This document shows, one piece after another, positions 9,556 to 62,410 of a stretch of DNA of 64,000 bases; within the stretch, counting starts at the first letter, position 1; every line of letters starts with the position of its first letter. Source of the stretch: Trogon surrucura (lineage: Eukaryota > Chordata > Aves > Trogoniformes > Trogonidae); contig CM036621.1 in assembly GCA_020746105.1 (NCBI GenBank), positions 45,852,264-45,916,263 on the forward strand, written 5' to 3'. The translations under genes were made by a program, and so were the position numbers. The notes beneath the pieces were generated by a model that was given only the letters and a program-made list of their open reading frames with translations, made no database searches and had not been told where the DNA came from.

Positions 9556-9949
9556 TGCCAACAACGAACACTAGCGGCTCTCTGACCGGCACCGGGGTGT
9601 CCGCGGGGCTGCGGTGGCAGCACCCAACCCCTCCCCGGGCCCGACCCCGCCGCGCCGCAGCGCCCTCGCGCCGCCGCCCGCCCCGCCGCGCCGCGCTCGC
9701 CCAATCGGGCTCCAGCTCCCCGCGCGGCCCGGCCCCCGCCTCGCTCCCGTCGGCGTCGCCGGTGCGGTCGCGCGCGCGCGCCGCCTCACCGCCCGCGCCC
9801 CCGCCCTCGCCCGGGCGCCGCCAATGGGAGCGACGGCGCGGCCCCGCCCCGCGCGCGGAGCTCGCGCCGCTGGCGGCCAAGGCGGCGGCTCGCACGTCGG
9901 CGGGGGCGCGCGCGGCCGGTCGCCCCGGTCGCGCGCAGGCGCGCACGGG

Positions 9950-10072
9950 AGCCGGTGTCGGCGGCGGCGCAGCGGGGGCCGCCGCTCGGCTCGGCCGGGG
10001 CTGCTGATGGCGGAGCGGCGGCGGCGGCCGGCGGCGAGGCCCGGGCAGCGGCGAGGCGCGGCGCCGGCCGAG
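9950..10072 (+). other. ADARB1: Probable ADARB1 non-coding first exon (5' end uncertain)
   Basis: A consensus 5' splice site (GCCGAG|gtgaggct) at 10072/10073 sits just downstream of the promoter motifs, so the first exon probably ends at 10072. The left boundary is a guess, set after the NRF1-like site. A second strong donor (GGGAAG|gtgagcgc) at 10461/10462 could terminate a longer or alternative first exon. Splicing to the acceptor at 45165 would remove an intron of 35,092 bp. An ATG at 10007 lies inside this exon and would be a uORF if transcription starts upstream of it (see findings). Confidence 0.5.
10007..10072 (+). other. Possible upstream ORF, first part
   Basis: ATG at 10007, in a CTGATGGCGG context, opens 22 codons that run exactly to the putative donor at 10072. 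Spliced to the exon at 45165 the frame continues for 18 more codons and stops at TAG 45219-45221, which overlaps the main ADARB1 start codon at 45212. The arginine/alanine-rich peptide has no recognised function. The feature depends on the inferred exon 1 boundaries and splice partner. Confidence 0.35.
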
Positions 10073-10700
10073 GTGAGGCTCGGGTGCGGCGGCGGGAGCG
10101 CCCCACGGGACCTGTCCAGGTCCTGACGCGGCGGCAGGTGCCGGTGGCGGCGGGCCCGGCCGCCCCCCGCACCTGTTGATCCCGGCGGGGCGGGGGGGGT
10201 GCCGGCCGCAGGCGCGGCGGGGCGCAGTGCGGCGCGGGGCCCGGCCGTGCCCGGCGGCGGGGCGGGGGCAGGGGCAGGCTGCCGGGCGGCCTCGCCCGGC
10301 CAGGGGCCGCAGCGGCGAAGCCATTTTGTGGGGGTGGTGGCTCGGCGGGAAGTTTGGCCCCGGGGGAGCCGTCTCCTCTGGCCTCCCGGAGCCCCGGGCG
10401 GCGCGGGCTACCTGCTCTGCCCCGTTCTCCGCCGCCCGGGAGCCCGCTGCCGGCGGGGAAGGTGAGCGCGGCGGTCGCGGTGGCCTGACCGCCCTCCCCT
10501 CGCCTTTCCCCCGCTCCCGCTTGGCCACCCGGGGCCGCCGTGCTCCCTCCGGGGGAGCCGGGACCGGCCGCCCCCCCCTCCCCGGCACCCGCTGCCCGCC
10601 CTCTGCGGCGGGGAAGGCGGGCACGTCCTTGCGAGAGGAGCTCGGGCGTGAAATGCGGGTTCGCCTCGCAGCCTCTCGTTCTGGCTGGTTTAAATACACT

Positions 10701-13700
10701 GGAAGTCCCTTTTTTTTTTTTTTTGAGACTGCCGGCTCTTGATTTGCCCCCGCCCCGGCCGGTTGGTTTGGGTTTCGTGGTTCCTCCTGCGTTTGGCTGG
10801 ATTTGGGCTGCGCCCGACCGAAAACCGGTCGCGGCGTGTGTGTTATTGTGCAGAAACTCCGGTTTGCTTAGAAAGCGTTTGTGCGTTTGTGGAAATTGCG
10901 GCGTGTTGGGCTCCCCCGATGGGTGCCCGGCTGGCCTGTGCCTGAGGGGCGGCCGCTGCCCTGGTCCAGCCCTGCTGCCCGCCCGCGTCTTTGTCTTGTG
11001 TCTCCCAAAACTCGGGGCGAGGGAGCGCTGGTGGCGTTGGCTGGAGAGGAGGCAGCGAAGCGGCCGGAGCTCCCTGCTCAGGCTAGTGAAACCACAACGA
11101 ACATGGACAAGCAGCCTCGCCAACAGCAGCCAGGCTGGTCCTTAGGAACACGCTTGGCCTGGGCTTTTATTTAATTCTTTGGGCAGATATATCTACGGGC
11201 AAGAACCTCACCTCTTCTATTTATTATTTTTTTTTCCCATCTCCAGTAGGTCCTCCCAAGCAGCAGCAGACCGCAGTTGTTGTTTCTACGTTGTGCCGTT
11301 TCAGATTTGAGTCCTAGGCTCTGAACGTGGTGCTGCTGCTCGAGGGCTTTTGAAGCTGTTTGTGGCACGTTGGTTCCTCGGGGCATCTTTTTTTTTGGAG
11401 GTGCATTGAAGCTTCCTGGATTTTGTAGCATTTTAAATTTTTTTTTAATGTGCAGAAGCAGTGAAGAGCTCACCCTGGCCGTTGGATTCATACGGACACG
11501 CCGCTTGCTCTGTGAGTTTTCCGTCGGTGCTGTTGGGCCATTGTGCAAGTGAAGTCGTAGCGTCGTTCTCTGAGCCGTTAGGCTGGAGAGCGGCACCAGG
11601 CCAGCCTACAGAGCGCAGAAGATGTTTAGAATAATTAGTGATGGAATACCCTTTTAAAATAATTGTTTGGGTTTATCTAGCACTCAATTGTAGTGATATC
11701 TACCTCTAAAAATAGGCAGGCCTCTTGTGTAATGAATCCCATAGTATAAACAGTCACGTCTTGAATGACTGTTGTTACTTGTAGGATGTCCTCCAAGATA
11801 GATGCTTTTGGGGGTTTTGCCAAAATCCTCTGTCTAACTTTTTTTTTTTTTTTTTTTTTGCGACTAATAATGTGGTTCTTGGCCTGCACGGTGTGTAGCT
11901 GTGTGATGACCAGAGGAAAAGCTCAGTAACCCTTGCTGTTTGGGGCTGGCACAGCAGGGCAGAAAGCTTCCTGCCACTCCTCTGGCAGCCCAAGGTCGAG
12001 CAGGCCTGTCTTTTCCACAGAATTTGTGCTCTGCCTGATGCCGCGTTAACAGAAATGTGACCAGCGGTTAGCTTTGACTGGTGACTGTGCATCACTGCTG
12101 CTTTGAGGTGCTGTCCTCAGTTGATTCCGTGCAGAACTCTGTCAACTGGCTCTTGTCTGTGCTGGCGAGTCCACATGGGACAAGGAGAGACCCGCTCAGG
12201 CGTGATTGTGGTTGCTTCAGTAATAAAGGAAAAGCGTTGCGTGGGAAATTCTCTTCTGATTCGCTGTATGGTTTATGGGAGTGGAACAGCCGAGCTGTGG
12301 CCCTAGCCCCTCGTGTGCACATGCTGTGTGAAGTTTCTTTTCAGCAGTCGGTGTGCAGGCCAAAGCGTTTCTGGCGTTCTGGTGCAAAAGCACTGACTCC
12401 TCAGCGCAGCAGGAGGAGAATTTGCTATACGAAGGCTTGTTTTGTGAGAAGGTGTCATAGCGGACGTTGTGCTTCGTGTTTGAAGCGGGAGGTGTCTCAT
12501 AGCTTTGCTCAAGACTTCATAAAGCAGATTTATCTGCTCTGATGGAAGTTTAGTGCCCTTTTGTGGACTGTATGTGGTTCAGGAATGGAAGTGCGTAAGC
12601 CTTTGGCAGCGGGCCTCTTGCTCGCTAGGAGCACGTAAGTCTTCTAGAGTACTTTCCTATTGTTAATTATAAGCAAATGGAACTTTATTTTCTCTTTTAA
12701 AAGTCATCTGTGTGTTGACTAAAGTGAGGAAAGTCTTCTAAATGGGTGGGCTCAGACAGGACGTCATTGCAGTTTGGGTCTGCAACCAGGTCAGGCTCTG
12801 CTGCTCTCCAGCAAACCCGTCTGTGTGCCCTCAGCACGGCCCGCACCGGTGCGTTCGGTTGTTCTCGGTCACTGGGTCGGAGATCTTGCGTGGGAGCAAG
12901 GGGCCCCTGTTAAACAGGGCGATGGCAAACGGTTTTGCGGGAGAGCCGTGGGACAGACCAGAAGAGAACGTGCCCCCTGAGCAACACAGCGTCGGTGGGG
13001 TTGGGGTGTCATCTGTGACTTGAGGATGTTTTGTGGTGCCCCCAGCGAAGAGCATTTTCCTGGCTGCAGGGGCTGGGCGAGTGTGTTAATGCTTCTCTGT
13101 GCTGGGATGATTTTAGGAAAGGCTGAAATAATCTGTCTTCAGACGCTGGCAGCGAGCGTGGCTTGTCAGGTTGATGCCTCTGGCATTTGTAGTCAGTTCA
13201 GCGAACGCAGGACCCTGACACTTTGGGAGAGGATATTTGCTTGAACCTTTTAAGGACGTGGTCTGATGAAGACAGACACGTAGCACTTGCTGTTTCTGCA
13301 ACTTCTGAAGCCAATAAGTGCTTGGCACCTTTGAAACTCAGGCCATCCAGCTGCTGTACTATGGATTTCAGTTTAAGTACAATAGATTAAAAATGTGGTT
13401 TTGGAGTGTATTTATCAGTAGAAGCTGTTATTTATGTACTTTGGTTTTAAAGGAAGTACTTTCATAGGATAAATGTTGCGTGACCAAAAAAAAAAAAGTC
13501 TTGGCAAATTGATTATATAAGCAAACGAAATGACATTTTAAAGCAAGTTCCTTTCCTGTTTGCACACAACGTGGCTGTTTTTTGCTCTTTCCTACCATTT
13601 AACAACAGGGTGCATTTTTTCAATCCTTTCGGTGAATGTTTTTTGTGTGGTAGGTATGAGAAATACTTGTTTTCGCAATCTGAATCCTTAGAGAGGCCAT

Positions 13701-16700
13701 CAGCAGACTCTGGGAGCTGGCAGGAGCCAGCAGTGAGTGTTGGGGTCTGTGGCCGACCAAATCGGTGCATTTAAAAAATATTAAAAACAAGAACCAAAAC
13801 TAAACCAAAAAACCCCAAGAACAGCAAAAGGTAAGAAACCAGCGTAACCGATGTTACTCTGGGAACCGAGCTTGTCTCTGAGTGATGCTCCAGGCAGCCG
13901 TCCTCTCAAGGATATCTGGTTGCAAAGGGAATTGGAAACTCTCCATGTTCTCTGCCTCCGGATCAGCCGTGGCGCTTGTCCGTAGCCACGCAGAGGGACT
14001 TGGTGGCCTCTGCAGAGGCCGCCGCGCTGGTCGCCTTGAGCCTCCCGTGTCGGTGGGGAGCGTGAGGCTGAGTCAGGGCTGGCTGCCGAGGGCTGTGACT
14101 CAGTGCTGTCCCCTCAGATGCACATCCAGCCTGCCGCCAGCAGCGCCAGGGAATAACCTGATTAAGGAAGTGTCCTCTTCGAGTATCTGCTGATTCGAGG
14201 GGTTGGCAAGTGTTGGTCTGCTTTCAGTAGTTACGTGTGCGGTGGTGGAAGTTGGTCATTACTGAGCTTTTACATTTTTTCACATGCCGTACTGAGCATC
14301 CGTGGAAGCTCAGGGGAGCTCAGAGGCCAGAAGCTTCTTTCCTTTGTATTTGACAGTGTGGTGTTATGGTTTTGTATTTTTGTGGGATGTGTTGTGGTTT
14401 TCTAATTTAATTTTATTTTTACTTGCATACTTCGAGAGAATGAGTGCTGTTTTCCGTGGGGTGAAATTTCTTTCCTGGTGCTGTAAGTTGGGTCTCTGCG
14501 CTTCTGTCTCTTAATGTGCTTTTAAATTTAAGATTGCCTCTTAAACAAAATTGTCAGGAACTCCTGGTACCTCTCTGAGCTCCACTTCCCATTGTAGGAG
14601 TGTCACAGTGAATAAAATTGGTTGAGGCATTGAAAAGTCCATCAAATTTGACAAGAGGGTGAAGATGTCACAGGTAAGTGCTGAGAATTTGTACGAGGAC
14701 AGGAATCTGCAGAGGGAAAATTTTTGAGTTAGTGCTCTGCTAGAAGGAAAGCTGATGGCTGAGTGCAAATATGTTATTAGACATCAGAGGATCTTCATGG
14801 TAGGAGGCAAACAGGAAATCAAGTTTCCCAAGTAATTCAAGCAGAAGCTGAGTAGCCTTATTTTCCTTTGTGAGGAGCGATCTGATGAGCAATCTTGCAT
14901 TGTCATAGGTGATAGAAGAAAATAAAAGGTTTTGAGTACCGCCCTTCACCCTGCCCCTTGGGGCTGAAGAGGGAGGAAGATGAGTGAAGTTGTTAAATTT
15001 CACTGTAAAGGCTTTTGCAGATGTAAGAGGAAAATGTCCTTTTATAGGTGCCACGTAACAACTCCAGCCAGACTGCTTTTGGCAGAGATGCAAAAGGGGA
15101 TTGAAGAGTGTTGTCTTTTTTCCCCTTTTGCACCAATATGAATTTAAGATATTTATACCGATGTTCTTTGCCGTTCTAGTTTCTGAGGCCTTTCCTTTGG
15201 GAGGTGTAATGAAACAGGATTTATTTATTTTTTTTTTAATGTATTTTGTTAAAAAGATTCTAGCAGAATGGAGCTCTTGGACCTGTATCTTGCATCTTGT
15301 GGGTAAGATGCCAAGTATCCTGAGTATTCTCATTCAGAGAAAACATGGGAGGAATATACTGTATTTTGAATTTAAAGAAAAGTAGAAATCTTCCTCATTT
15401 GGTGATGAGTTTAGGGCTGTGTGTCAGGGTGCATTTTCGGATTACCTTGCTGTCTGTTCCTTTGTTATTATAATACTTAAAGTTGTATAAATAATTTTGT
15501 GATGGGCCTTTGGTAATGTTAGGCTTGAGGACTATACTGATACCAGTTTATTCTTGTTCCAAACTCTGCGTATTTTAGCACTCTTAATTTCTCAGTGGCT
15601 CCCCCTCCTCCATTCTGCTATTAGTTTTGTCATATCAGGTCTGGGAAGAGATGAACTGTTTAAAATTTGATCAAAAAGAGAACAAGCAAGTATGGAAAAC
15701 ATTAGTTTCTTTCATTTGTCAGATGTAGCGTGTGAAAATGAAGTTTTTACATAGGGATTGTGAGACATCCTCAACAAGAAGTACTTTTCCTGTTTAATCT
15801 GCTTAAGTTTTGAGGTTTGCAGAGATAATTAGTACCTGCCTTTTGCATTCGGAAGGGCTTCTGCTGAAAGCATTCAGTGCATCTAAAATGAGGTTGTTTT
15901 ACTTTGCTTTTCCTCTTTATTAGCAAATGAGTTGAGTTTAAACTTTCAGTGCATTTTTCCCTTGCTTAATTACCCTGTAATATTTGGGCATTGTCTGCTG
16001 GGAAACTATTAGAGGGGGAAAAAAAAATCTTTGACTTCTTTCTTTAGCTGCAGATTTTCTAAAACTTCATTTGCAAAGCTCGTTCTGAATCAAAATGAAT
16101 TTTTATTTTTCACCTTAATGTTGAGCACAAATACTGAATACTTAATAAGAAAAAAATAAAATGACTCCCAGTAAGAGCATAGCAGTATCTTTAATTCAAA
16201 AGCATGATCAGCCCTATGTTTTCACTAATAAAGTTTGCACATGCGTGCAGATTAGCTGGAAAATAAATGCGGATAGCCCTAGCAGAAGTCTCCAGCTAGG
16301 GATAATAAAACCACCAAGGTACAGACTGCAAATCAGAACATTTGTGCAGCAGAAATTACTGGAGACTTGGGAGAGTATTGGAGGAAAATCTCTCTGCGGG
16401 CTTGCTCTGTTCTTGCAGCAGCTGCTGGTGGAAGAGTATAGCCCTCAAGATGATGGAGCCTTGGTGTGGTCCACCCTGGATGCTATTAGGAGGATAGTAG
16501 GGAAAAAAGGAATGCTGATCAAAACTAGACCAGGGTAGCACATGTGGACGCTGCTTTTGTCCTTAGCCTTGCCATGTTTTTCGCAGCTAAAGGTAGAGGG
16601 TCAGTGCTGGTATATTTAAGTCTCCGAAAAATGAGAAGAATGAATGTAAGCCGATGGCTGAACTGTGCTGCGTTTGTGAGAAACTTGCAATAAAGCTGGC

Positions 16701-44600: not shown

Positions 44601-45164
44601 GTCATATTTGGACATTTTGGTTAATAGAATCCACATGCAGGAGAGAGAGTTGCCTTACCCACTCTGCCCTTTGATATGGGGCTACATCTTTTGATTGTCA
44701 GTGATCATCCCTTAGGAGGGATCTTCGTTGAGGATTTAACCAAACAGGCATTGGTCAGTTTGATGTTGGGTAAAAAACCCAGCATCTTCAGTATTAGGAC
44801 TGCTCAAACTGTCTGTGTGGCAGCCTGCAGAGTGGATTTGACATTATTATGGAGTTTAAAAAAAAAAAAAGAAACTGAATAGTGGTGAGATTAAGTAGTT
44901 TACATGCTTTCAGATAAAAAAATATTGTAGTTTGTCATACAAAACCCCAAATTCTTGCAAACCTTGTCAAATTTGCAGTTCTGCAGAGTGCACCTCAGCT
45001 ACAGAAATACGCGCTTTGGGGAAAAAATATGTGAAAATTGAGCAAAAACTGTGGACAGCCCTAAGCAAAGCCAGTGCCCAGGCTGCTGCTCTTAGAGGAG
45101 GTTTAATGCTTTACCTTGTATGTTGGTACCTTAAATCTTAAATATCCCACTCTCTCTTTTCCAG

Positions 45165-45239
45165 GCAGAAGCAGTCTCCGCCAACCAAGAAACCAGAAAA
45201 AATATTTCACAATGGATGTAGATGATGAAGAAAACATGA
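45165..45239 (+). CDS. ADARB1: ADARB1 exon with the canonical start codon (CDS from 45212)
   Basis: The 75-nt exon is bounded by a strong acceptor (tctctcttttccag, ending at 45164) and donor ATGA|gtaagatgag at 45239/45240. ATG at 45212 has an excellent Kozak context (A at -3, G at +4) and encodes MDVDDEENM plus the first base of a Ser codon. Mammalian ADAR2 begins MDIEDEENM at the same place. The 47 nt before the ATG are 5'UTR in the canonical transcript. They become coding (16 codons, no stop) when the R-domain exon at 35362 is spliced on, so the exon does double duty. The acidic N-terminus precedes the nuclear-localising and dsRNA-binding regions in the next exon. The junction is phase 1. 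The 7,278-bp intron that follows carries the self-editing switch. Confidence 0.95.
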
Positions 45240-48200
45240 GTAAGATGAGTTTATTTACACAGTAATAATGGTGTAATCATTTCTGAAGATTGCTTTTTCT
45301 CACCAGCACAGGGATGACTGTGAAGAAACTTCAGAAGCACAAATTAAAATAATTTCTTTGTCTGTTTTAAAATATGGTAGTGAAGAGTGAATGGGAGCTT
45401 TTGCATTGAAAGTGTTTTAAACGCACGTGGTTATATGCTGGTCTAGTTATACCTTGTGTCCCACATTTTGCTTCCAACAACTGACTAATCAAACAAAATA
45501 TTTTCCCGTTTTAAACCAGCAATGATGAACAGAGAGAATACCAGCAGTGTCAGTGCCAGTGGTTAGGGACCAGTCAGAAGGAAGGGAGAGACAAAGCAGA
45601 TGGGGTTGAAATGTATAAAATAAATGGGGGGAAGCAGAAATGGAGGAAGAAAAAGCAAGAGGAGGAGCTAGAAGAGCTCACACAAGTCTTGGATGGCTGA
45701 TTACTCTCGCTAGATTGTTCCAGCCCTGAGCTACTGAATTATTGAAGTGTGTTTAAGCACAAAAATAGTAAAATATAGTGATCATCTTGATGAATACGCT
45801 GGTGAAGTGCTGCGAGGTTGATAACTCCATGATACGATTAAGATCTGATAACCTGTGGAGAAAAGCATTCTCATTAGAACATTATAAGATATTTTTCTAT
45901 TACTGGTCTTTCAACTATCTTCTTTTGTGAATGAGAGAAATGTTCTCTTGCTGCTATGATGATGTGCAGTGCCTGATTATAAATAATCATATATATGTGA
46001 GATAATTGTTTTTCCCTTAAGTGACAATGGCTAAATGGTGCATCTCTGGCAAAGCTGACAAAGCCCAGCAGTGGAGGAGGCTTAGGAGCAGAAGACTTGT
46101 AGTTCAATCTGAATGAGTTGCAGAGCGTTTTAATTGAGAGATAAAAAAGTTAAATCATTGTGTTTAAAAAAAAGACAACAAAAAATCGACAACAAACTCA
46201 ACCAAATGACACCCCTTTCTCCTCCAAAAAAAAATCTATAAGTGTTATCTGGACTAGAATGCATCTTCTTCTTCAACTGAAACAGTGAACTCAACTCAAA
46301 TATGCTTGCTAACTCTTTTTTTTACTTGGCATAAAAGAAATTACTTCAGACGGATGCTTAAGCTCTTTCTAAAAGTGGCCTTCCTAAGGAGGACTTCAAA
46401 AAAGTAAGAGCTGTAATTGGATAATTCATTTAGGATAATTTTTTGGATAAAACATGCCCTTATCTCAGTAAGGAGGATATCTGAGCATGAGTAAAAAATG
46501 TCTTCCCAAGCTGGAGAAAACATCATTTTATGGATCCTTAAGTGAAATCCTTATTTTTCTGCCTGCTTTTTGGTTTTTTTTGTGTGTGTTAGTGCATCAA
46601 AATGGGAAACTATTCCCTGAACTTTGGACTCGTCAGGAGACTGGCTCCATGGAGTTGCTATAAGTTTGAGGCCTGCATTTGTATAACCACAGTTGGCTCC
46701 CAGAAGTATGTTTTGAGATGTCATCTGCACTGTATTTTTGGAAAAAAAACCTACAAATAGCCATGTCTACTTGGATGAACATAGTTAATACAAGGTGCAA
46801 GAAAACCTTGCTGCATCTGTATGCTCACACAAACATCACGAATTTGTAAGGTTGAATCATCAGATTTTGGGGGGAGAAATGAAAATTCTTCAGTTCTTCA
46901 CCTTGACCGTGCAAAGACTTTCTTTAAAAAATATGATCTTTCTGTACTTTTATGTCTCTTAAAATTATGAAGTGCAATATCGGAAGTATTATTTTATCTG
47001 ACTCCTTTTTGGGGAGGTACTGACAGAGAAGGAAGGTGAGCGTATACAATATTTGCAGCTTGCAGGTGCACTGGAATTTCTCTAGTGCAGAAACCGAAAT
47101 TAAAATTGTAGTGCCGAGGTTCCGTTAATATCTCTGCAAAAATACAGCATTTCAGTCTACATGCTTTAAGGTCTCCTTCCTTTATCCATTGAACATAGAG
47201 AAGATGTTGCAAGAGGTTTGGGGAGAGATCTGTTGGGGTTGTTTTTTGTTTAGGTTTTTTTTTTTTTTTGAACGTGTTTATTTCATTTTCTGTTGCTTTC
47301 TGGGGAGGTTACGCCTGCAGCACTCTGAATGCCCCAGGAATTTGTTCCAAAGCCCATCTGCACATTACCTCAGTGTCAAGGCAGAGGACCCTGCAGAAGT
47401 CTCAGTGCAACACAACTAAATAATTTGCTAGGTGTAAATACGCCCTGTTGCCTATCCTTATTGTTTTATGGGCAAGGGAGGAGTGGGGGCGTTTTGCAGA
47501 ACACTTCGGAAACTACCATGTGACTGTCCTGACCTTCCTCTATGATTTTTTTTTCCTCCCTTTTAAAAAAAAAATGCTCAGAAGAGATCACACTTCTTTT
47601 TTTTTCTGCCTGTTTTTTTTTTATAAAAAAATTTACTTATTTAGGCTTTCCCTAGGCCAGTAAATGAGAACAATAGTATAAAGGGTAGCTTGAAACACCT
47701 TTTGGTTCAGTTGAGAATCATCTAAATTTAATGAAGAGTGCTCCAGATCAGACGGGGCAGGAGGAGTGTTGTCTCTCAGCAAGCAGGTACTGGAAGTTAC
47801 CCAATGGATAAAGCACCTTAATTACAGGGAATAAAACAAAAAAAAAACCAACGCACTTAAATGGAAGAAGTCTTTCTTTACTGGCATAAACATTCCCTGT
47901 GCCTCGCTCCTTCTTTGAGTGCTCTTCAGTTTGTAAGCCTCTCAAATACAATTTCAGGGGCAGGAGTTTTCTTGCCCTGAGGTTTTTGGCATGTGATGCT
48001 GTCAGCTCTGATATGTACCAAGCCAGGTTCTACAGACATCAGGGAAATCTCTAGTCAAAAGCTGCCAACTAGTTTTAGTGACGAGAAAATAAACTAGTCA
48101 TACGAAATAATATCTTATTCTTAAATCATGAGTAGTATTAATGTTTAAGAAAAGAGGATCCTATTATCAAGGGTTTATATCTGTATTAATGCTGCTCTAT

Positions 48201-48752
48201 AGTGTTGAATACAAAGCAGCTGTCAGGGACCTCAAAGGGCTTTCTAAAGCATTCATTCCTTGAGAACTTACTTTAAAGTCTATGCGTTTTCCAGTCTTTA
48301 AATGTGTTTAAAATCCAGGATTAGGCTGTTTTTAAACCTCTTGATTTTTGAGTATGTTTAGGAGATCTACCAAGACGGTGTAACCTTTCTGAAGCAAGAC
48401 TTGCAACATGAACATACAGCCACTTGTCAGCTCCAATAACAGTTTAATAGAAAAGAAAAAAGGATAATGAAGAGCATCCGTTACTGAACACAGATTTTTT
48501 TTTTAAAAAAATTTTTTTTATAGTTCAGATAGAATTTCTTTTCTCCTGCCTGCTCTCCTCTATGTTTTGTACTTTGTTAGAGTGTTCTAACATTCACAGT
48601 TATTGTTTTCCTGTCTTATTGTGGCCGTGATGCTGGCAGCACAGAGCTTACTACCAGTCTCCGAATCACACTGATAGGCTTTGGGATGGTCTAAACTGGT
48701 TTTCACAACATGCATGGAGTGGCGTGTGGCACATCTGCCGCAACCACTGCTT

Positions 48753-49038
48753 TAAAGCGACATTTACAAGGGTGTGTAGCGACCAGGATGAGGGGCAGTG
48801 GTTTTAAACTAGAGCATAGCAGATTTAGACTAGATGTTAGAAAAAAGTTCTCTACAATGAGGCACAAGTTGCCCAGAGAGGTGGTGGAGGCTCCATCCCT
48901 GGAGACGTTCAAGGTCAGGCTTGATGGCGCTCTGAGCAACCTGATCTAGTTCAAGCTGTCCCTGCTCACTGCAGGGGGATTGGACTGGATGACCTTTAAA
49001 GGTCCTTTCCAACCCAATGCATTCTATGATTCTATGAA
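48753..49038 (+). mobile_element. CR1 LINE 3' end, forward orientation
   Basis: This is a clear CR1 3' region: 'ttgcccagagaggtggtgg', 'gagacgttcaaggtcaggct', 'gggattggactggatgacc', 'ggtcctttccaaccc' and the tail ATTCTATGATTCTATGA at the right end. It is 5'-truncated and relatively well preserved. Confidence 0.95.
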
Positions 49039-50053
49039 AATTTTGCTCTTCTTGTGTACTGATGCTCCCAGCTTGCACTGCAACGACATCCTGAATCAAC
49101 CAGAGCTTTCCTTTGGAGTGAGAGACTCCCCAAAGTCTTACAATCTCTAAACTAGCATATTATCAGAATGAAAACGTTTGAAAAATAGAGCAAGAAGATC
49201 AAATACCCAATGCACCCAGCTGTGGGTTTGCTCCTCCTATGTCAGAAAGCATGCAGGGGCTGCTCTGAGAAGAGGATGACCTCAGGACATGCTAGAGCCC
49301 TGCGGTATAGAGAGACCTGTTGTATTAGAGATCTTGGTAAAATCATGCGTAGCACAGGGTGTTCGCTGTTAGAATCATCAAATTTAAAAATAGCAAATAA
49401 AAAACAATAGATGCATTAAGCGACGCTTGCGGATGGATGTTCAAACCAAGCAATAAGAGATGTTTTCGTGCAGAGCGTAATGAAACCGTGAAAGACATTT
49501 GCCCAGGACATTGTGGATGCCAAGGATTTATGGGGTCTTGAACAGCAATTTGAAAAGTTTCTGGGGGCAAAAGCCCCATCGGTGTCTCCCTGCCAGGCCC
49601 CTTGGGACAACCCAGAGCTGTGGCTCCCTGCAGGCTGAGAGGCTGCCCTGGGAAGGGCTGCTGTATCCTTGCTCTGGTTTGATACCCCTTCCTGGGGTCT
49701 GCTGGTGGCCCTGTCACAGATGGGGAGCTGAGTGAGGTGAGGATGAGCTTGTCAGGCTGTTGTTAACTTACAAGGTGAGGTGCCTGGGAAAGGGAGAGCT
49801 GTTTCTGAACAGCACGGAGAGGCTGGGCTGGAGGGGTTGCCCCCGATATCAATATGGAAAAGATTAAACGAGATGACTTCTCTGACTTTTAACAGGTGGT
49901 GGTAGCTAACCTCACTTTTTGACTAATCTGTGAGCTCTTCTCCAGTCCTAAGGTAATTACAGGACCTCATTGCTGCGGGCAGGACAGGCTAAAGAAAAGC
50001 ACCAAAAGCATGTCTTCACCCTCAGCCTGAGCAGCTGTTGCTCTTTCTTGCAG

Positions 50054-50325
50054 TCTAGTGACTCTGTGGGTTGAAACAAACCCAGGTCCTTCTGGTTTGC
50101 ACGAAAAGTCGTTTTCTTTCCATCACGTGCCAGGCTTGGATTTGGATCACCTCCACGATTTAGAAACTTGTCTGCCTTCGTCGTCTCCGGGTTTGACTCC
50201 GACTGGTAGCTCCCTGCTCGCTTTCTCTCCTAGTTTCTTCCGCCCTGCAGGTCCTCCAAATCTAACAAGCCTAGTAGTTATCAGGCAAGGCATGTTTTTC
50301 TGCCCTTCTTTGTTATTGAGACAAG
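50054..50325 (+). other. Candidate exon-like segment (272 nt), likely poison exon if real
   Basis: An acceptor (gctctttcttgcag, ending 50053) and a donor (ACAAG|gtaagc at 50325/50326) enclose a frame open throughout. The peptide is proline/serine-rich with no recognised domain. Joined to the preceding ADARB1 exon in phase 1, it would give ATC followed by a TAG stop at once, so inclusion would terminate translation. It may be chance. Confidence 0.2.
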
Positions 50326-50783
50326 GTAAGCACGCAAGTTTCTTTCCTGCTTCCTACAAGTCCCCTGCTCTCTGTCAGGACATCCTTTCCCCTCCCTGTG
50401 TCGTGAGATGGATTAAGGACTTCCCCTGGCTGCCAGACTTACATGCAAAAGTTCTTTTTTTATTTTCAGCTGGAGTCTGTGCGACTCATATTTTCTTTCT
50501 GTGATTTATACAGACACTGGTAGTAGTCTTCATATAAAGACGTAAGATAAAAACAGAGGCCGTAATTAGTGTTAACTAAATTATTTCTGTTTAGCCTAAA
50601 AGTCATGTTGGTTAATAGCAAATTCGTGGTGCCACTAGCAGGAGCAGTGTTCCAGAAATGGTGTTTTAGATGAGATGTAATTTTTGGACATTATAGCTTC
50701 AGGTAAGAAACTCGGTGTAAGGAAAGATTTAAAAATTCACACTGTTGTACTGAGATTCCTTCTCTGTATATGTATGAGTGTGT

Positions 50784-50838
50784 ATATATATATTCTTTTA
50801 TATATATGTATATACATATATATAAGAATATATGTGCA
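50784..50838. repeat. AT-rich near-perfect palindrome / TA microsatellite
   Basis: Left and right arms around the centre GTATATAC (50808-50815) are inverted copies: ATATATTCTT(tt)ATATATATGTA against TACATATATATAAGAATATAT. The arms are about 24-27 nt with a two-base difference. It would form a hairpin as DNA or RNA and is likely to vary in length. Confidence 0.8.
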
Positions 50839-51116
50839 TGAACACTCTGTACTGACAGTTGGGGTCCTATAACACAGGTTCTGCAGACAATATGGTTTGT
50901 GACTGAATGTTACAAGACAAATGTTAAATTCATATTTCTAGCAATGAAGTGCTTCAGAATATTTAGTGTTTCATTCTTTAGTGTATTTCATTGACTGGAA
51001 TTTAATGTTCAGTACTATACAATTCTTTGTTGTGCTACTGTGCTTTAACAAAATGTGTTCATACTTTGGCTTTTTCTTTTGATCTTTTCTTTTTCTTCTT
51101 TGTTTCTCTTTGAGCA

Positions 51117-51215
51117 CCGAAAGGAGTAACCTATCGAGCTTTTGCTGGAGGATGTTATAAATGAAAATTTAGTAACCATTCCGTCAGCTTTGCAACCTGG
51201 GCGAAGTGATGTGTG
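51117..51215 (+). promoter_or_regulatory. ADARB1: Editing-complementary arm of the ADAR2 self-editing duplex
   Basis: Read as RNA, this segment is the reverse complement, with gaps, of the region just upstream of the dsRBD exon. Pairs in register include 51124-51130 with 52495-52501 (7 bp), 51149-51153 with 52472-52476 (5 bp), 51158-51163 with 52462-52467 (6 bp), 51164-51171 with 52453-52460 (8 bp), 51188-51196 with 52427-52435 (9 bp) and 51204-51215 with 52410-52421 (12 bp). The rest is wobble or small mismatches. In rodents ADAR2 edits its own pre-mRNA at an intronic duplex whose complementary strand lies over a kilobase upstream in the same intron. This arm has that position and orientation. 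Confidence 0.88.
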
Positions 51216-52409
51216 CGTGGTAGGGGATTCTTAGGGAAGACTGAAAGCGTGACTGAAATTTGTCACTGTAAAGAGAGCTTCCACTCGGTTTGCTCTCATT
51301 TCCATTAATATTGATCACCTAGTATTGGTGTAGGTGTAATGTAGAAATTTTAAAATTTTGCAAGAGTTAGAAACACTTGACCTACTAAATTTGCCTTTTC
51401 TTTCACAACTGCCAATATAAAGCTCAAATAATTCATTTCCTTAGTTTCTTTTTGGGGGTAAAAATCAGCAGTTATTTTTTCAAGTTGCAGCAGATGTAAT
51501 TCCTTAAATATGCCTCTGACATATCACTACCTCAACTTTCTAGTTCAGAAAATAAATCGTTAAATTAATATTACAGTGCCTTTCGTCCCCATGACAGTAT
51601 CATTTTTGGGATTGCACAGATTTGTCACACTTGTATCCTACATAGTCTTCAGGGAGAACCTTTTTCATGCTTTTTCTGTTTGTGATGCTGTGACAGCAGT
51701 TTTCTTGCTTTGCAAAGAGTTACAGAATAGCTTGTGAACAACAAATATAAAGTTTCTTAGTAGAAGGCTTTGTGGAAATGCTTAAAATAGTTTTGTGGTC
51801 ATGCTGACACAGTGGGCAGCTGTATTTCCTGAGCAAACTGAGGTGAAATGAGATAAAAGTCTAGGAAAAGCGTAAAAAAAGGTTTGAATTCAGAAAATAC
51901 AAAATAGGTAAAGAGAAACAAAAGCATTCAAGCACTCTTCATTCAAGGTGTCTACTAAAAAGCTACCGAATTTTTTGTGGCTGAGATTTTATTTATGGAA
52001 TTTCTCAATTTCAGCAACTAAAATCACTGATAAAAAAAAATCAGCATGAATAAAATAAGTATAAGATAGAATTAAATACCCATCTCCTAGTACTGGTCTT
52101 ATTTTACTAACAAATAATTTTTGCTAATACTGATTCTTTCTTTTGTAGGCATATGCTACTATGTCTCACATTTCTTGTTTAAAGCATTTTTCAGGCCAAA
52201 TGTAACTTACAAGTAGAAATTTTGTTCCAGCATGATTTAAATGCAAAAAAATTATAAAATAAGCTGCAGTGTTTTTTTACTCTATATGACTGTATCAAAT
52301 GCATAGTTTGAAAACTGTTCTTGAATGTGTTACTTCTGGAACTACTGAGAGGTTGTACTGCATTATTATCATCATCCCTGATGGTATTGCAAAACGTTTA
52401 ACCTGTGAG

Positions 52410-52507
52410 CACACATCACTTAACCAGTTGCAAAGAGAGATAAAGGAATCTATAAATTTTGCATTTACAAGATCCTGCAACGAAGGCATTGTAAGTTACT
52501 CTTTCTG
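52410..52507 (+). promoter_or_regulatory. ADARB1: Self-editing arm with the edit-dependent 3' splice site
   Basis: This arm pairs with 51117-51215. It contains the dinucleotide AA at 52469-52470, and the bases from 52471 to the normal exon start at 52518 number exactly 47. In rat ADAR2, editing AA to AI makes an AG-like acceptor 47 nt upstream of the normal site. Here A52470 pairs with U51155 and A52469 with U51156, flanked by an A·C and a G·G mismatch. The 3' neighbour of A52470 is G, which suits ADAR2. Use of this acceptor shifts the reading frame and is expected to lower functional protein as negative feedback. Confidence 0.88.
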
Positions 52508-52517
52508 GGCACCGCAG

Positions 52518-53449
52518 GTTCGAGCAGCACCGATGTTAAAGAAAACCGCAACGTTGACAACGTTCCCCCCAAGGACGGTGGCGGGCAAGGCGCCGGGGAG
52601 GGGACGCAGCTCTCCAACGGCGGTGGCAGCAGCAGCCGAAAGCGTCCTTTGGAGGAGGGCAACAATGGCCACTCCAAATTTCGCCCCAAGAAGAGGAAGA
52701 AAACACCCGGCCCTGTTCTGCCAAAGAACGCCCTGATGCAACTCAATGAGATTAAACCCGGTTTACAGTACAAACTCCTCTCCCAGACAGGGCCGGTCCA
52801 CGCCCCCATGTTTGTGATGGCAGTTGAAGTCAACGGGCAGGTATTCGAGGGGTCTGGCCCGACGAAAAAGAAAGCCAAGCTTCATGCTGCCGAGAAGGCT
52901 CTGCGCTCTTTCGTCCAGTTCCCAAACGCCTCGGAAGCCCACCTGGCGATGGGGAGGACTCTGTCAGTCAACACGGACTTCACCTCCGACCAAGCGGACT
53001 TCCCCGACACCCTTTTCAATGGGTTTGAAACGCCGGTCCCTTCCGATGCTTCCTTTTACCTTGGGTCCAATGGGGACGGGTCCTTTAGCTCTAGCGGGGA
53101 CTATGGTTTGCCGTCGTCAGCCGTAGCCACCGGCCTTTCCCAGTCGCCTCTCCCCGCACCGTCGCCCTACCCTTCCGCCAGCGGGAAGAACCCCGTCATG
53201 ATCCTCAATGAGCTGCGGCCAGGGCTGAAGTACGAGTTTCTCTCGGAGAGCGGGGAGAGCCACGCCAAAAACTTTGTCATGGCCGTGGCAGTGGACGGTC
53301 AGACTTTTGAAGGCTCGGGAAGGAATAAGAAGCTGGCAAAAGCTCGGGCCGCTCAGTCGGCCTTGGCGTCCTTGTTTAACATGCAGCTGGACCAGACCCC
53401 ATCTCGACAGCCCATTCCCAGCGAGGGGCTCCAGTTACACTTACCACAG
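52518..53449 (+). CDS. ADARB1: ADARB1 exon encoding both dsRNA-binding domains
   Basis: This 932-nt exon starts after acceptor gggcaccgcag and ends at CAG|gtgaga. Its first two bases complete Ser10. It encodes residues 10-320 of the canonical product. A Ser-rich and glycine-rich lead is followed by a basic stretch KKRKK at about 67-71 (likely nuclear targeting). dsRBD1 covers about 78-141, beginning [11 protein letters not shown] and containing the RNA-contacting KKKAK at 126-130. A linker of about 90 residues includes [16 protein letters not shown]. dsRBD2 covers about 232-296, beginning [14 protein letters not shown] with [10 protein letters not shown] at 279-288. The two domains position long or imperfect RNA hairpins for deamination in the nucleus. 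Similarity to mammalian ADAR2 is very high in both domains and lower in the linker. The exon is much richer in GC than its introns. It ends in phase 0, and the next residues VLADAV follow at 60712. Confidence 0.98.
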
Positions 53450-56400
53450 GTGAGAAGCCCTTGGGGTTTTGTTGGTGTCTTTGGGTAGTGACCAAGTCAA
53501 TTCGTGTGCATCAAGTCATCTTGAACAGCGCTTTTGCTCTTTGTTTCGCTTCTGCGAGTGTGTACGCATTTATATATAGATGCATTATGTGATTTATCCA
53601 CTTATTCTGACAATTGCACGAACTCTTTGTGTTCTGTTGGACTGAGAGAAAGCTTTGGTGCTGATGCTTTCAGGCTTGATCATATCACGTAAGAGAGCAC
53701 CAAGCCCAGTGCAGTGCCAGCTTGGATTATGGTTTGTGCTGAGGAAAGGTTGAACTGCTGCCTCTCATAGGCAGCAAGACTTCGATGGAGTTCAGGTCAG
53801 AATTACTGCTATAAGATTATTATTTGATACAACAGTTTTTAGTGGAGAAGATAATAGTTCTCTTCTGCAAACTGAAATTGTTGACATTAATGGAGCTGAG
53901 TAGTGGAAGTCAAGGACAGATTAAGTGAGGCTGATGCAGTCGCTGTGTATTTCCAGGGTCTAAATAATTGACGCACTTGCAGTACACGCATCCAAGATAC
54001 GTGCTGTCACCTAGAGGATTGTGTTCTGATCAAATGAGTTAATAAGTATGTGTTAGTTACTTAGGCAAGTACATCTGGATAAGAAATAGTTTAAATTAAA
54101 TAACTAATGAACTAGGGAAAGTGGCAAACATACCAGCAAAGAAACTTAAAGTAGCTAGAAGGGAGTAGGTTTTTTTTAATGAAGAAAAATTCTCCCTTGT
54201 TTGCTTGCTTATGTTCCTCTCTAATCAGAGTACAGTAATGATTGTTTGACTGTCCCCTTATTCCTGCCTCTCTTGAGTCTTTTTTAATGCTATTATATGG
54301 CTGTCTAAATTCAAATACCTGCTTGTGACTTTTTTGCAACTTTCTATCTGAGAATTTCAAGGGTTTGACCTTTTTTATCTCAAAAACATTGTTTCAGATT
54401 TCATTAAAAATGCAAGAGACTGGTCCGATTTGATAAAACAGGGTTAAAGAGTGTAAGGAGATGTGACTTTTAAGTGTGTTGTTTTCTCAAAATAGATGGA
54501 CAATGTTCATCATTTAGAAATTCCTATATACTTTCTCTTTTAATGTTGCACAATTATTGCATTACTAATGATTATTTCCTTAACTTTCAAATCTAGTTTC
54601 ATGCTGTTTCAGGTAGTTGTATTTTCTTCCATAGATTCAGTAATTTCAGACTTCATTCTTGGCTGTGATTTTGGCCTCAGACACCAAAAAAAATTCCCTG
54701 TTGGTAATTTATGTGTTATTAATTCCTGAGTCAGTAAAATGGTGAAAATTTGAACTGAAATAGGCAAGTGGGAAACAGCAGGAGGTGAGACATGAAAGAG
54801 GTGTCGTTCTAAGAAGGTTAAGTCGTTTCTCCGCTCAGCAGCCCAACATGAAAGAGCTTGCACAGCCTCTTTTTTTTTAAGGGACTTTGATGGATCTCTG
54901 GGCAGTGATGAGTTTTTCTGAGCTCCTTGCCTTTGTCAGGTGTTGACCAAGTCCTGTCCCACAGCTTATGGGGTGACCAAGGCATTTGGACCTACAGTAC
55001 AGTATTAAATAACAAAAAAGGAGCCCATGCAAACACTATTTTTAGTTTTTTCCAGTGCTCCTACCATACCTGTATTGTGTACAACAAAGCATGCCCCAGG
55101 GCTAGCATGCGTTTCACCTGTCTTACAGGTGTGCACCAAAAAAGGCTACTCTGGTGTGGGGAAGAGCCCAGTGGGCTTTGGGACGTGCTGGGTGGGAAGG
55201 AGGAGGTTGCTGGTGCTGCCTCGTGTAGACCCAGTCCGAAGTTACTTACTTATTCAGAGGCTTTTGAACAACTTGTCATCAGGATGTCGTCATCCTTTCT
55301 GCACTTTGCTGTATTGTATTACTCTTAATTATAATTAGGTGGCAGGTTAATGGAATTATATCAGGTCTGTCACATATTAGTGATTTCATCTGGTAGGTAT
55401 TAATGATTAATAACGAATTTAAGCATTTGTGATGTTTTCAGGCCCTGCTTTATTTATCTTCCTTTTTTTTTTTTAACTCTGTGAGTTGTTTTATTTTTTC
55501 ATAGAGTGTTTACACAGAACGTGTAAAGATGTTAAGTTTGGAGATAATCCTAAAGTGGGTGAAGTCACAAACATTGTAGAGTACAGGAATGATATAAATG
55601 AGGGTGGGATTTGTTATAACCCATACATCATATAAAATGCTGATTGCGTTAGAAGCTGGAAGCACAGAAGGGGAGGAAATATCCAAACACCAAACGCTTA
55701 GTGAAAATTGCAAAAGTACGGGGTAGTTGTGCCAATGAAGACGTCAGAATTGTGTTCCTGGGCGACAGGTTCAAAACCTGCCTGTAGCTGGTGTGTTGAT
55801 TCATGGTGCCTCATGAAAAAAAAAAAAGGTAGAGCAGAAAGAGTTGAGAGGTAGAGATGATCCCCGCTCCAGTGGTGGTTGTGAGTATTGGCTGAAATGG
55901 GTATCTCTGATCCAACGACTCCCGATAGCTGCAGACACTTCGAGGAAAATTAAATGTGGAAATACACGTGCAAGCTTTCAGATGGCACAGAAGGGCAGGT
56001 GAGCTTACAAAATGGGCATGGGTATAATCTTATGGTCTGCAGAGTGGGTTATCAAGGCGCTGATCCCGTGGTTTAATACATGTAAAACCAGTGGCAAAGC
56101 AAGCTTGTCTGCTTGCTTACAGCGTGACCTTTTCTGAGGGATGAAGCAACGTTGCCTGCGGTGAGGAAAGTCTTTCTTTGCTGGGCAAGTGAGTTAAAGC
56201 CAGTAAGTGACTCAACATGTGCTTTGGAGCGGAGGAAAATGTTCTGCTGAGAAAAATCAACCCTTGTACTGTTATCACCTTGGCAGCAAGCATGTTAAAA
56301 TGAAAGAGGTTGTCAGTCTTGCATTGTAGAGATGTGCCTCTCCAGAACAAACATTTTTATGGTTAGTAAATTAGTAGCCATCCTCTGACCACTTGATGCA

Positions 56401-59400: not shown

Positions 59401-60711
59401 AATCTTTGGACTCTACAAGTTGTGTAATTGCAGAACGTTGACCAACACCTGGTGCAGATGTGACCTCAGTTACCACTGGCTGCTGGTGGCTGTTTCCAGA
59501 CAGATTCTTGGAAAACGATGTCAAGCTCCAAAATCACAACATGTGAGCTTTAATTACTGCTTCCTTGGCTGCTAAAGCTTTTCCAGAAGGAAGTTAACAC
59601 TGAGAGCACCTCCACGTTATATCTAGGCTTTTGATTCTTGTGAGTGTCATGAAGAAAACGATACTCCAGGGTAGGCAAGGGCTGTCCGCTCCTCTCCAGC
59701 TGCTGGTCCCGGTGCTGGTGGCAGAAGGGTGGGGAAGGGCTGCCCTGTCTCTCCTGCCAGCCTTAGGACTGCTGGTCACACCATCTGTGTTTGTGTAGAT
59801 TGCCCCAGATGTCAGGTTTTTTCCAGGTGAAAATCCAAGGATTTAATCTTTACTCATCTCTCCTAGTTGTTAGAATTCCAACTGCCTTAAAAACGGCAGG
59901 TGAGATTACCTGCAGCATCGATCAACAAGAGCAGGGCTGGTATTTTGAAGTTCTTCTTAACATTAGAAGTTAGCCCTCCGGACCGATGTTGCTCCTTAAC
60001 CCTGCTGGCAAGATACAAGGCTATGACTGTTATTGTTCAAGTTTTCCTGAAGGTGAAAGAGCTAAGTCCTTCCTGATTTTGAGAGAGAGCTTATTCTGGG
60101 TTATACGTTGACATTTCTATTCCGAAATTTGAATATGTCTTGTAAAAATAAGATACAGACAGTGTTTAACCAGGGTTGAAAACAGATTCGTTCTTACTTA
60201 TGTAATAGCTAAATAATGAATTTGTTTGTTATAAAAAGTTTACATGTTGGTTTGAGGAGTCTGTTTTTTTGCGCTTCAATCTTCTTGTCAGGTCCAATGT
60301 TGAGGATACTGAAATGATGTGTTTTGAGTTTTGAGCACGAACGTACAGACTTATCTGTCTATCCAGTTGTTCTCCTAAGCCTCAAATGTTCATAACGATC
60401 ATGAGCATTGGGTGCTTTGATACTTGGCTTAGGGCTGACTGACCCTGTTTTAATAGACGTGGAGCATACAGCAGAGCTCTGCTTCCACTTGTAAAGAGCT
60501 GCGAATGCTCAGTATACCTGAAAATCGGACCCAGCCGCCTCCTCGACATCCTGCTGATGCCTCAATGTCCATTTTTAATGGGAACAACAAAAACTCGTTC
60601 CATTTATTATGTCAGATCATTTAAAAGTGCAAATCTTTATAACCTAATGCTGCTGTAATTTTGAAATTACCTGTTTATTTTTCTAATGTGCGCTTCTGTG
60701 TGATCCTACAG
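53450..60711 (+). other. ADARB1: Intron after the dsRBD exon (7,262 bp)
   Basis: AT-rich unique intronic sequence. I see no exon, no clear CR1 and no RNA gene. Several poly-T tracts (for example 55465-55475 and around 58631-58657) and a C-rich patch near 58283 occur. Short open frames here have no recognisable domains. Confidence 0.7.
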
Positions 60712-60826
60712 GTTTTAGCTGATGCTGTTGCACGCTTGGTTGTAGATAAATTCAGTGATTTGACAGAAAATTTCACATCTCCACATGCACGTAGAAAAGT
60801 CCTTGCTGGAATTGTCATGACAACAG
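60712..60826 (+). CDS. ADARB1: ADARB1 exon: start of the deaminase region
   Basis: This 115-nt exon lies between acceptor tgatcctacag and donor ACAACAG|gtaaat. It encodes 38 residues plus one base (residues 321-358), starting VLADAVARLV and including the SPHARRKVLAG motif with MTT before the junction. This is the N-terminal edge of the adenosine deaminase domain of ADAR2-type enzymes; mammalian ADAR2 has nearly the same sequence here. The phase-1 junction (ACA ACA G|) should continue with a Gly-Thr sequence in the next exon. The catalytic His-Ala-Glu and the zinc-binding cysteines are in later exons, which are not in this window, so the gene is cut by the right edge. ADAR2 proteins are about 700 residues, so roughly half the protein is visible. 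Confidence 0.97.
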
Positions 60827-61503
60827 GTAAATAAAAAACAAAATATATTATTTTAACTCCTTAAATACAGAAGTTCTGTTTGCATTCTAGGAAACTATCT
60901 TTTTTCAGTCAACCAGTGTTGAAATATATTTTTACTGGTTAATCTCTTAAGGCGCACAATTAAATCTTGACTAAAGGTAATTACAGGAAAATTAGACCTA
61001 CAATACTTGTGTTTTCACAGAGTTCCTGTCTTCTGACTGACTGAGACATCTGAGATAACTCATGGTCTACAAAATACATGTACCTTTTAAAATTAACCCT
61101 GCAACTTTTTGAAAGTAAATCTAAATTTTACCGCATTGGTCACACAGATGGCTTTTCTTGGGTTTTTAGCATATTATGTAAGAAATTACACTTGCTTTCC
61201 AAGTTTTCGAGGTTTTGTACTTTGTTGTTCTTACTGTGTTTTATTCTTAGTCTTTTGCGTTTCAGTCATTCTAGTAAAAATACCTGAAGAACGCAACTGG
61301 TGTTTTGGCAGCTGACACTGGCGTGCAAGTACAAGCAGCAGCGACGTCGTGGCTCTCTGCTGGCACGAGATCCGTGCTCTGCCATGTCACCATCCATGGA
61401 CAGGGGAGCGTGACAGGGGGGCAGTGTGGCACAAACTCTGTTGCAAGACATCCGTGGTGGGCTGACCCTGGCCAGCAGTCAAACACCCAGCCAGCCTGTC
61501 GCT
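60827..61503 (+). other. ADARB1: Start of the next ADARB1 intron
   Basis: Intronic AT-rich sequence with no recognised feature. The next ADARB1 exon (expected to start with codons for Thr-Asp-Val-Lys) is not found before the window ends. Confidence 0.7.
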
Positions 61504-61550
61504 TAGAATCATAGAACATTTTCAACAATTTCCAGCCTTTGTCCCAGCCC
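61504..61550 (-). mobile_element. CR1 tail fragment, reverse orientation
   Basis: Short reverse-complement CR1 3' tail (agaatcatagaacattttc followed by 'caatttccagcc'). It lies head-to-head with the much larger forward CR1 copy that begins about 70 bp further on. Confidence 0.65.
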
Positions 61551-61616
61551 GAAAAGCCATGCTCTTTTTTCCTCCTTAGCTTCCCATGCCATCTCCTCAC
61601 TGAAACATTTCATCTG

Positions 61617-62410
61617 ATGAAGTTCAACAAGAGCAAGTGTAGAGTCTTGCACTTGGGAAAGAATAACCCCATGTGCCAGTACAGGTTGGAGACTGCCCTG
61701 CTGGAGAGCAGTGCAGGGGAAAGGGACCTGGGGGTGCTGGTGGCCAGCAGGATGGCCATGAGCCAGCAATGTGCCCTTGTGGCCAAGAAGGCCAATGGCA
61801 TCCTGGGGTGTATTAGAAGGGGAGTAGCAAGGCCGAGAGAGGTCCTTCTGCCCCTCTGCTCTGCCCTGGTGAGGCCACATGTGGAATATTGTGTCCAGTT
61901 CTGGGCCCCTCAGCTCAAGAGAGACAGGGAACTGCTGGAGAGAGTCCAGCACAGAGCCCCAAAGATGATTAAGGGAGTGGGACATCTCCCTTATGAGGAA
62001 AGGCTGAAGGAGCTGGGTCTCTTTAGCTTGGAGAAGAGGAGGCTGAGGGGTGACCTCATAAATGTTTATAAACATGTCAAGGGGGAGTGTCAGGAGGATG
62101 GAGCCAGGCTCTTTTCAGGGATGTCCAATGAGAGGACAAGGGGCAATGGGTACAAGCTGTAACATAGGAGGTTCCACAAAAATATCAGGAAAAACTTTTT
62201 CACAGTGAGGGTGACAGAGCCCTGGCACAGGCTGCCCAGGGAAGGTGTGGAGTCTCCTTCTCTGGAGACATTCGAAACCCGCCTGGACGTGTTCCTGTGT
62301 GACCTACTGTAGGTGATCCTGCTCTGGCAGGGGGGCCGGACTGGGTGATCTTTTGAGGTTCCTTCCAACCCCTGACATTCTGTGATTTATTCTGTGATTC
62401 TGTGATTCTG
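61617..62410 (+). mobile_element. CR1 LINE, about 0.8 kb with open RT C-terminal frame
   Basis: This is the longest CR1 copy in the window. It contains the end of ORF2 in one uninterrupted frame to a stop at 62160-62162, with the typical CR1 strings [50 protein letters not shown] and [17 protein letters not shown]. The 3'UTR follows ('ctgcccagggaaggtgtgga', 'ttccttccaacccctgacat') and ends with the tail TTCTGTGATTCTGTGATTCTG. The frame reads as the region after the reverse transcriptase palm. The 5' part with endonuclease and RT core is absent, so it cannot move by itself. The lack of stops suggests a relatively young insertion. Confidence 0.95.

Follow-up and report, generated by a model that had tools for sequence, protein, structure and literature searches.

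The first coding intron of ADARB1 in Trogon surrucura very probably carries the orthologue of the ADAR2 self-editing splice switch

The locus was analyzed in a window of 64,000 nucleotides (nt) of Trogon surrucura DNA, whose positions are used below; all parts of the switch described lie on its plus strand. The gene was identified as ADARB1, which encodes ADAR2, from a large exon (52518-53449) that carries both dsRNA-binding domains and has 2l3j (editase 1, E 9.6e-125) as its best PDB match. Farther along the contig, past the end of the window (contig position 45917014 onward), come deaminase-domain matches on the same strand. The first 28 coding nt of the gene (45212-45239; MDVDDEENM plus one base) end at the donor GTAAGA at 45240. 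The site of interest is found in the first coding intron (7.3 kb), directly 5' of the exon for the dsRNA-binding domains. By eye, an open frame at 60643-60834 resembles the next ADARB1 exon (VLADAVARLVVDKFSDLTENF...), and the tail of a reverse transcriptase was seen at 61515-62312; from its motif, this fragment is presumably a CR1-like LINE. No Rfam family reached its gathering score across 45000-53500. A DNA search of the genome (1.166 billion bases, 164 contigs) returned two pieces of the locus itself, without most of the 47-nt segment described below, and so has no bearing on whether this segment occurs elsewhere.

The normal (distal) acceptor of the intron reads CAG/G, with its AG at 52516-52517 and the exon boundary at 52517/52518. 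Exactly 47 nt upstream are A 52469 and A 52470, numbered -2 and -1, followed by G 52471. A preliminary description had proposed this AA as an editing-dependent acceptor, and its statements on the 47-nt spacing and on the G 3' of the target A were both confirmed. The bare AA is an incomplete description of the site: the AA is present, but the unedited RNA reads AAG and has a genomic AG one base downstream. Editing of 52470 would turn AA into AI, creating a proximal acceptor in the context CAI/G, and its use would retain a cassette of 47 nt (52471-52517). In this cassette, 45 of the 47 letters are those of the published +47 cassette of human ADAR2; only +18 and +44 differ. The human letters are those of the cDNA printed in PMC4030101, in which the G at +18 may be genomic or a product of editing; at the corresponding position here, 52488, there is an A. 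The insertion point, after 28 coding nt, is also the same as in human ADAR2, where the extra sequence is placed after the first 28 coding nt in the part of PMC4030101 consulted. The identity with the human sequence settles what the site is. The earlier argument that identical spacing implies strong functional constraint needs qualifying: spacing alone is weak evidence, and the constraint amounts to conservation of an element that has already been described.

The AA had also been placed inside a long-range duplex with each A opposite a U, and pairing predictions bear this out. The target arm (52445-52527) spans both the proximal and the normal acceptors, and the upstream complementary arm, or editing complementary sequence, lies about 1.3 kb before the acceptor (51100-51182); -2 and -1 are predicted to face U 51156 and U 51155, respectively. 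When two 85-nt arms (51099-51183 and 52444-52528) were folded together, 66 pairs were obtained (20 G-C, 36 A-U and 10 G-U), with an energy of -57.1 kcal/mol. Partners were scanned for along the whole 64 kb in 6,378 segments of 70 nt with a step of 10, those overlapping the target (52455-52510) being left out. The best partners were the overlapping segments 51101-51170 and 51111-51180 (-45.8 kcal/mol); the mean was -21.0 kcal/mol (s.d. 5.0), and the next unrelated place reached -39.9 kcal/mol. In a fold of 51040-52560, covering 1.5 kb of the 7.3-kb intron, the A at -1 pairs with 51155 at p 0.97. The normal acceptor pairs in this fold with 51065-51066 (p 0.56 and 0.61), as opposed to 51108-51109 in the two-arm model.

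Duplex energy was dropped as a significance test. Scanned against the 7 kb upstream, the target gave -54.5 kcal/mol, close to the average for 120 random segments of the window (-52.4 kcal/mol), and 62 of those 120 reached -50 kcal/mol or better; duplex energy probably follows G+C content. Because energy alone was not distinctive, complementarity was compared with that of shuffled sequences. The score of 82.5 exceeded the maximum from 500 shuffles of the target (67.0) and from 500 shuffles of the intron (76.0). Among 1,530 overlapping segments of the window, 27 reached this score: the target itself and 26 segments at 9816-13997. The region 9816-13997 is taken to be G+C-rich, judging from repeat units near its start, where short G+C-rich tandem units were seen at 9647-9819. 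Together, these tandem units and the complementary segments are perhaps part of a CpG-island promoter. The inverted repeat closest to the site (52221-52248 with 52457-52484), at first taken as the duplex, was rejected since it leaves -2 and -1 unpaired, since its 351-nt fold resembles that of shuffled sequence (z -0.49; 34 of 100 shuffles folded as well or better), and since it retains close to zero expected pairs in the 1.5-kb fold, once the arm 1.3 kb upstream is present.

Self-editing of rat ADAR2 is reported at -2, -1, +10, +14, +23 and +24 in the excerpts of PMC2694175, and all six positions are adenosines here. Within the cassette these are A 52480 (+10), A 52484 (+14), which is part of an AAG, and the AA at 52493-52494 (+23/+24), whose second A is in an AAG. 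Of the 23 adenosines in the target arm, only +10 and +24 are opposite a C, and both are on the list of rat edit sites (Fisher p 0.059); this coincidence is only suggestive. As for the two differences from the human cassette, +18 is unpaired in the duplex here and the change at +44 would turn a G-U pair into A-U. On the predicted pairing, neither would disturb the duplex, which speaks of compatibility and is not a test of covariation.

The unedited site reads ACAAGA. Its genomic AG (52470-52471, in AAG/A) defines an adjacent register, which would be lost if 52470 were edited: used as an acceptor, it retains 46 nt and gives a product of 16 residues. Editing at -1 swaps AAG/A for CAI/G one base upstream, and hence the +46 for the +47 register. 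CAG and UAG acceptors outcompete AAG, and CAI/G is nearer to the consensus acceptor than AAG/A. In principle, the AG of the +46 register could be used in unedited RNA. The change from AAG to CAI is a small, testable point on how editing selects an acceptor. We did not find it stated in the excerpts of the ADAR2 self-editing literature that were covered.

From its sequence, the site is very probably the orthologue of the ADAR2 (ADARB1) self-editing autoregulatory switch. As proposed, the end of the first coding intron would pair with the segment about 1.3 kb upstream, ADAR2 would deaminate 52470 in this duplex, and the resulting AI would be read as AG. Position 45239 would then be spliced to 52471, and the 47 extra nt would shift the frame. 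In this way, rising ADAR2 activity would lead to less functional ADAR2, as a negative feedback. By analogy with the published cases, we infer that both editing and feedback operate in this species. Translation of the +47 form stops after 97 residues and does not follow the reading frame of the dsRNA-binding and deaminase domains; one ADAR2 paper, in the part consulted, gives truncated products of 82 residues for rat and mouse and of 31 for human. The next AUG in the normal frame after the insertion is Met83 of the normal protein. Human Met84 is placed in the first dsRNA-binding motif (PMC2694175, in part), and Met83 is close to it, so that re-initiation at Met83 would likely lose part of this motif.

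The site is therefore an already described element, a conserved orthologue and not a new system. Self-editing of the ADAR2 pre-mRNA and +47 splicing were reportedly described by Rueter, Dawson and Emeson in 1999, and the work of Slavov and Gardiner in 2002 is said to include chicken. Conversion of AA to AI, retention of 47 nt, the frameshift and negative feedback are set out, in whole or in part, in the excerpts consulted of PMC5852575, PMC2694175, PMC4761006, PMC4381283 and PMC1852406. The AA-to-AI acceptor of the preliminary description agrees with these accounts by position, spacing, duplex and 3' G. With the rat, mouse and human systems the locus shares the gene, the 28-nt insertion point and the frameshift; it has 45 of the 47 cassette nt in common with human and the edit offsets in common with rat, and differs in the length of the truncated product. 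An edited +47 transcript of adar2 is also reported in zebrafish (excerpt of PMC4018279), where, by its description, 47 nt are likewise kept through editing of an upstream A. The excerpt of PMC8096273, a zebrafish editome paper, calls an auto-regulatory mechanism possible, and the ADAR2 site is unmentioned in the part examined. The -1 site is likewise unmentioned in the part examined of a chicken embryo editome paper (PMC4449034). According to the part of PMC4053846 consulted, an ADARB1 intronic site (chr21:46595620) belongs to a conserved set; for chicken and zebrafish, high conservation is stated for 45 sites (76%) of the sequences that the study examined. In brain, use of the +47 acceptor is given as about 80% for mouse and 15% for human (PMC2694175, in part); +47 was found in some gliomas and was undetected in that study's normal human brain samples (PMC4030101, in part). 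A comparable editing-dependent exon is the Alu exon of NARF, which its authors liken to the conversion of the intronic AA of ADAR2 into a 3' splice site (PMC1852406, in part). It differs in being of primate-specific Alu origin and in another gene, and presumably provides no feedback on an editing enzyme. The present comparison indicates that human and a bird differ very little in the ADAR2 feedback cassette, and with the coordinates of both predicted duplex strands the site can serve to test RNA data for editing activity.

Other explanations of the site were considered. An AA at the matching spacing could be a chance occurrence in the A+T-rich end of an intron, and AA at 47 nt is in itself weak evidence because this dinucleotide is common in A+T-rich DNA; the 45 of 47 positions shared with human refute this explanation, the complementarity statistics also go against it, and its probability is practically nil. 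It is very improbable, too, that the proximal acceptor of this conserved region is used without editing, by way of the genomic AG at 52470-52471, to give a +46 transcript. The AAG does exist in the DNA, but it is weaker than CAG in competition, and the normal CAG/G is close downstream; moreover, the transcripts reported in human and zebrafish, as far as the consulted excerpts go, are +47 and not +46.

A less remote explanation, although still improbable, is that the duplex and the conservation serve mainly to restrain the normal acceptor, editing being a by-product. The target arm covers this acceptor, which is also paired, with 51065-51066, in the 1.5-kb fold. However, it is paired less firmly than -1 in that fold (p 0.56 and 0.61 versus 0.97), and in mice without ADAR2 self-editing the level of ADAR2 is raised (PMC2694175 and another review, both in part), so that the editing product matters there. 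The self-editing switch remains the preferred reading.

A further reading concerns the other edit sites of the cassette. Between the acceptors there are just two further AGs (52484-52485 and 52494-52495), both in AAG; the A's of these are +14 and +24, for which editing is reported. We can only tentatively suggest, as a rather doubtful idea, that multi-site editing would serve to clear competing AGs, making the choice between the +47 and the normal acceptor sharper, along with the switch from the +46 to the +47 register at -1. ADAR2 prefers a target A with A or U on its 5' side and G on its 3' side, and the coincidence of AAG with edit sites may reflect no more than this neighbor preference. 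A fourth AAG, whose A is 52444, is at the edge of the target arm, outside the range counted above, and is absent from the list of reported edit sites. If AG clearing were true, editing would also destroy the donor-like form of the GTAAGT at +21 to +26, within which +23 and +24 lie. This GTAAGT (52491-52496) is the sole such hexamer in 45240-52517, 13 being present in the whole window, and it is also found in the human cassette; the counts in the intron and in the window are about those expected by chance. Matches to the branch-point motif YTNAY were seen in 52400-52510 at 52423 and 52467 only, the latter being 4 bases 5' of the proximal exon start and 50 nt 5' of the point where the normal acceptor ends. 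Judging from these motifs, the proximal and normal acceptors may use different branch points.
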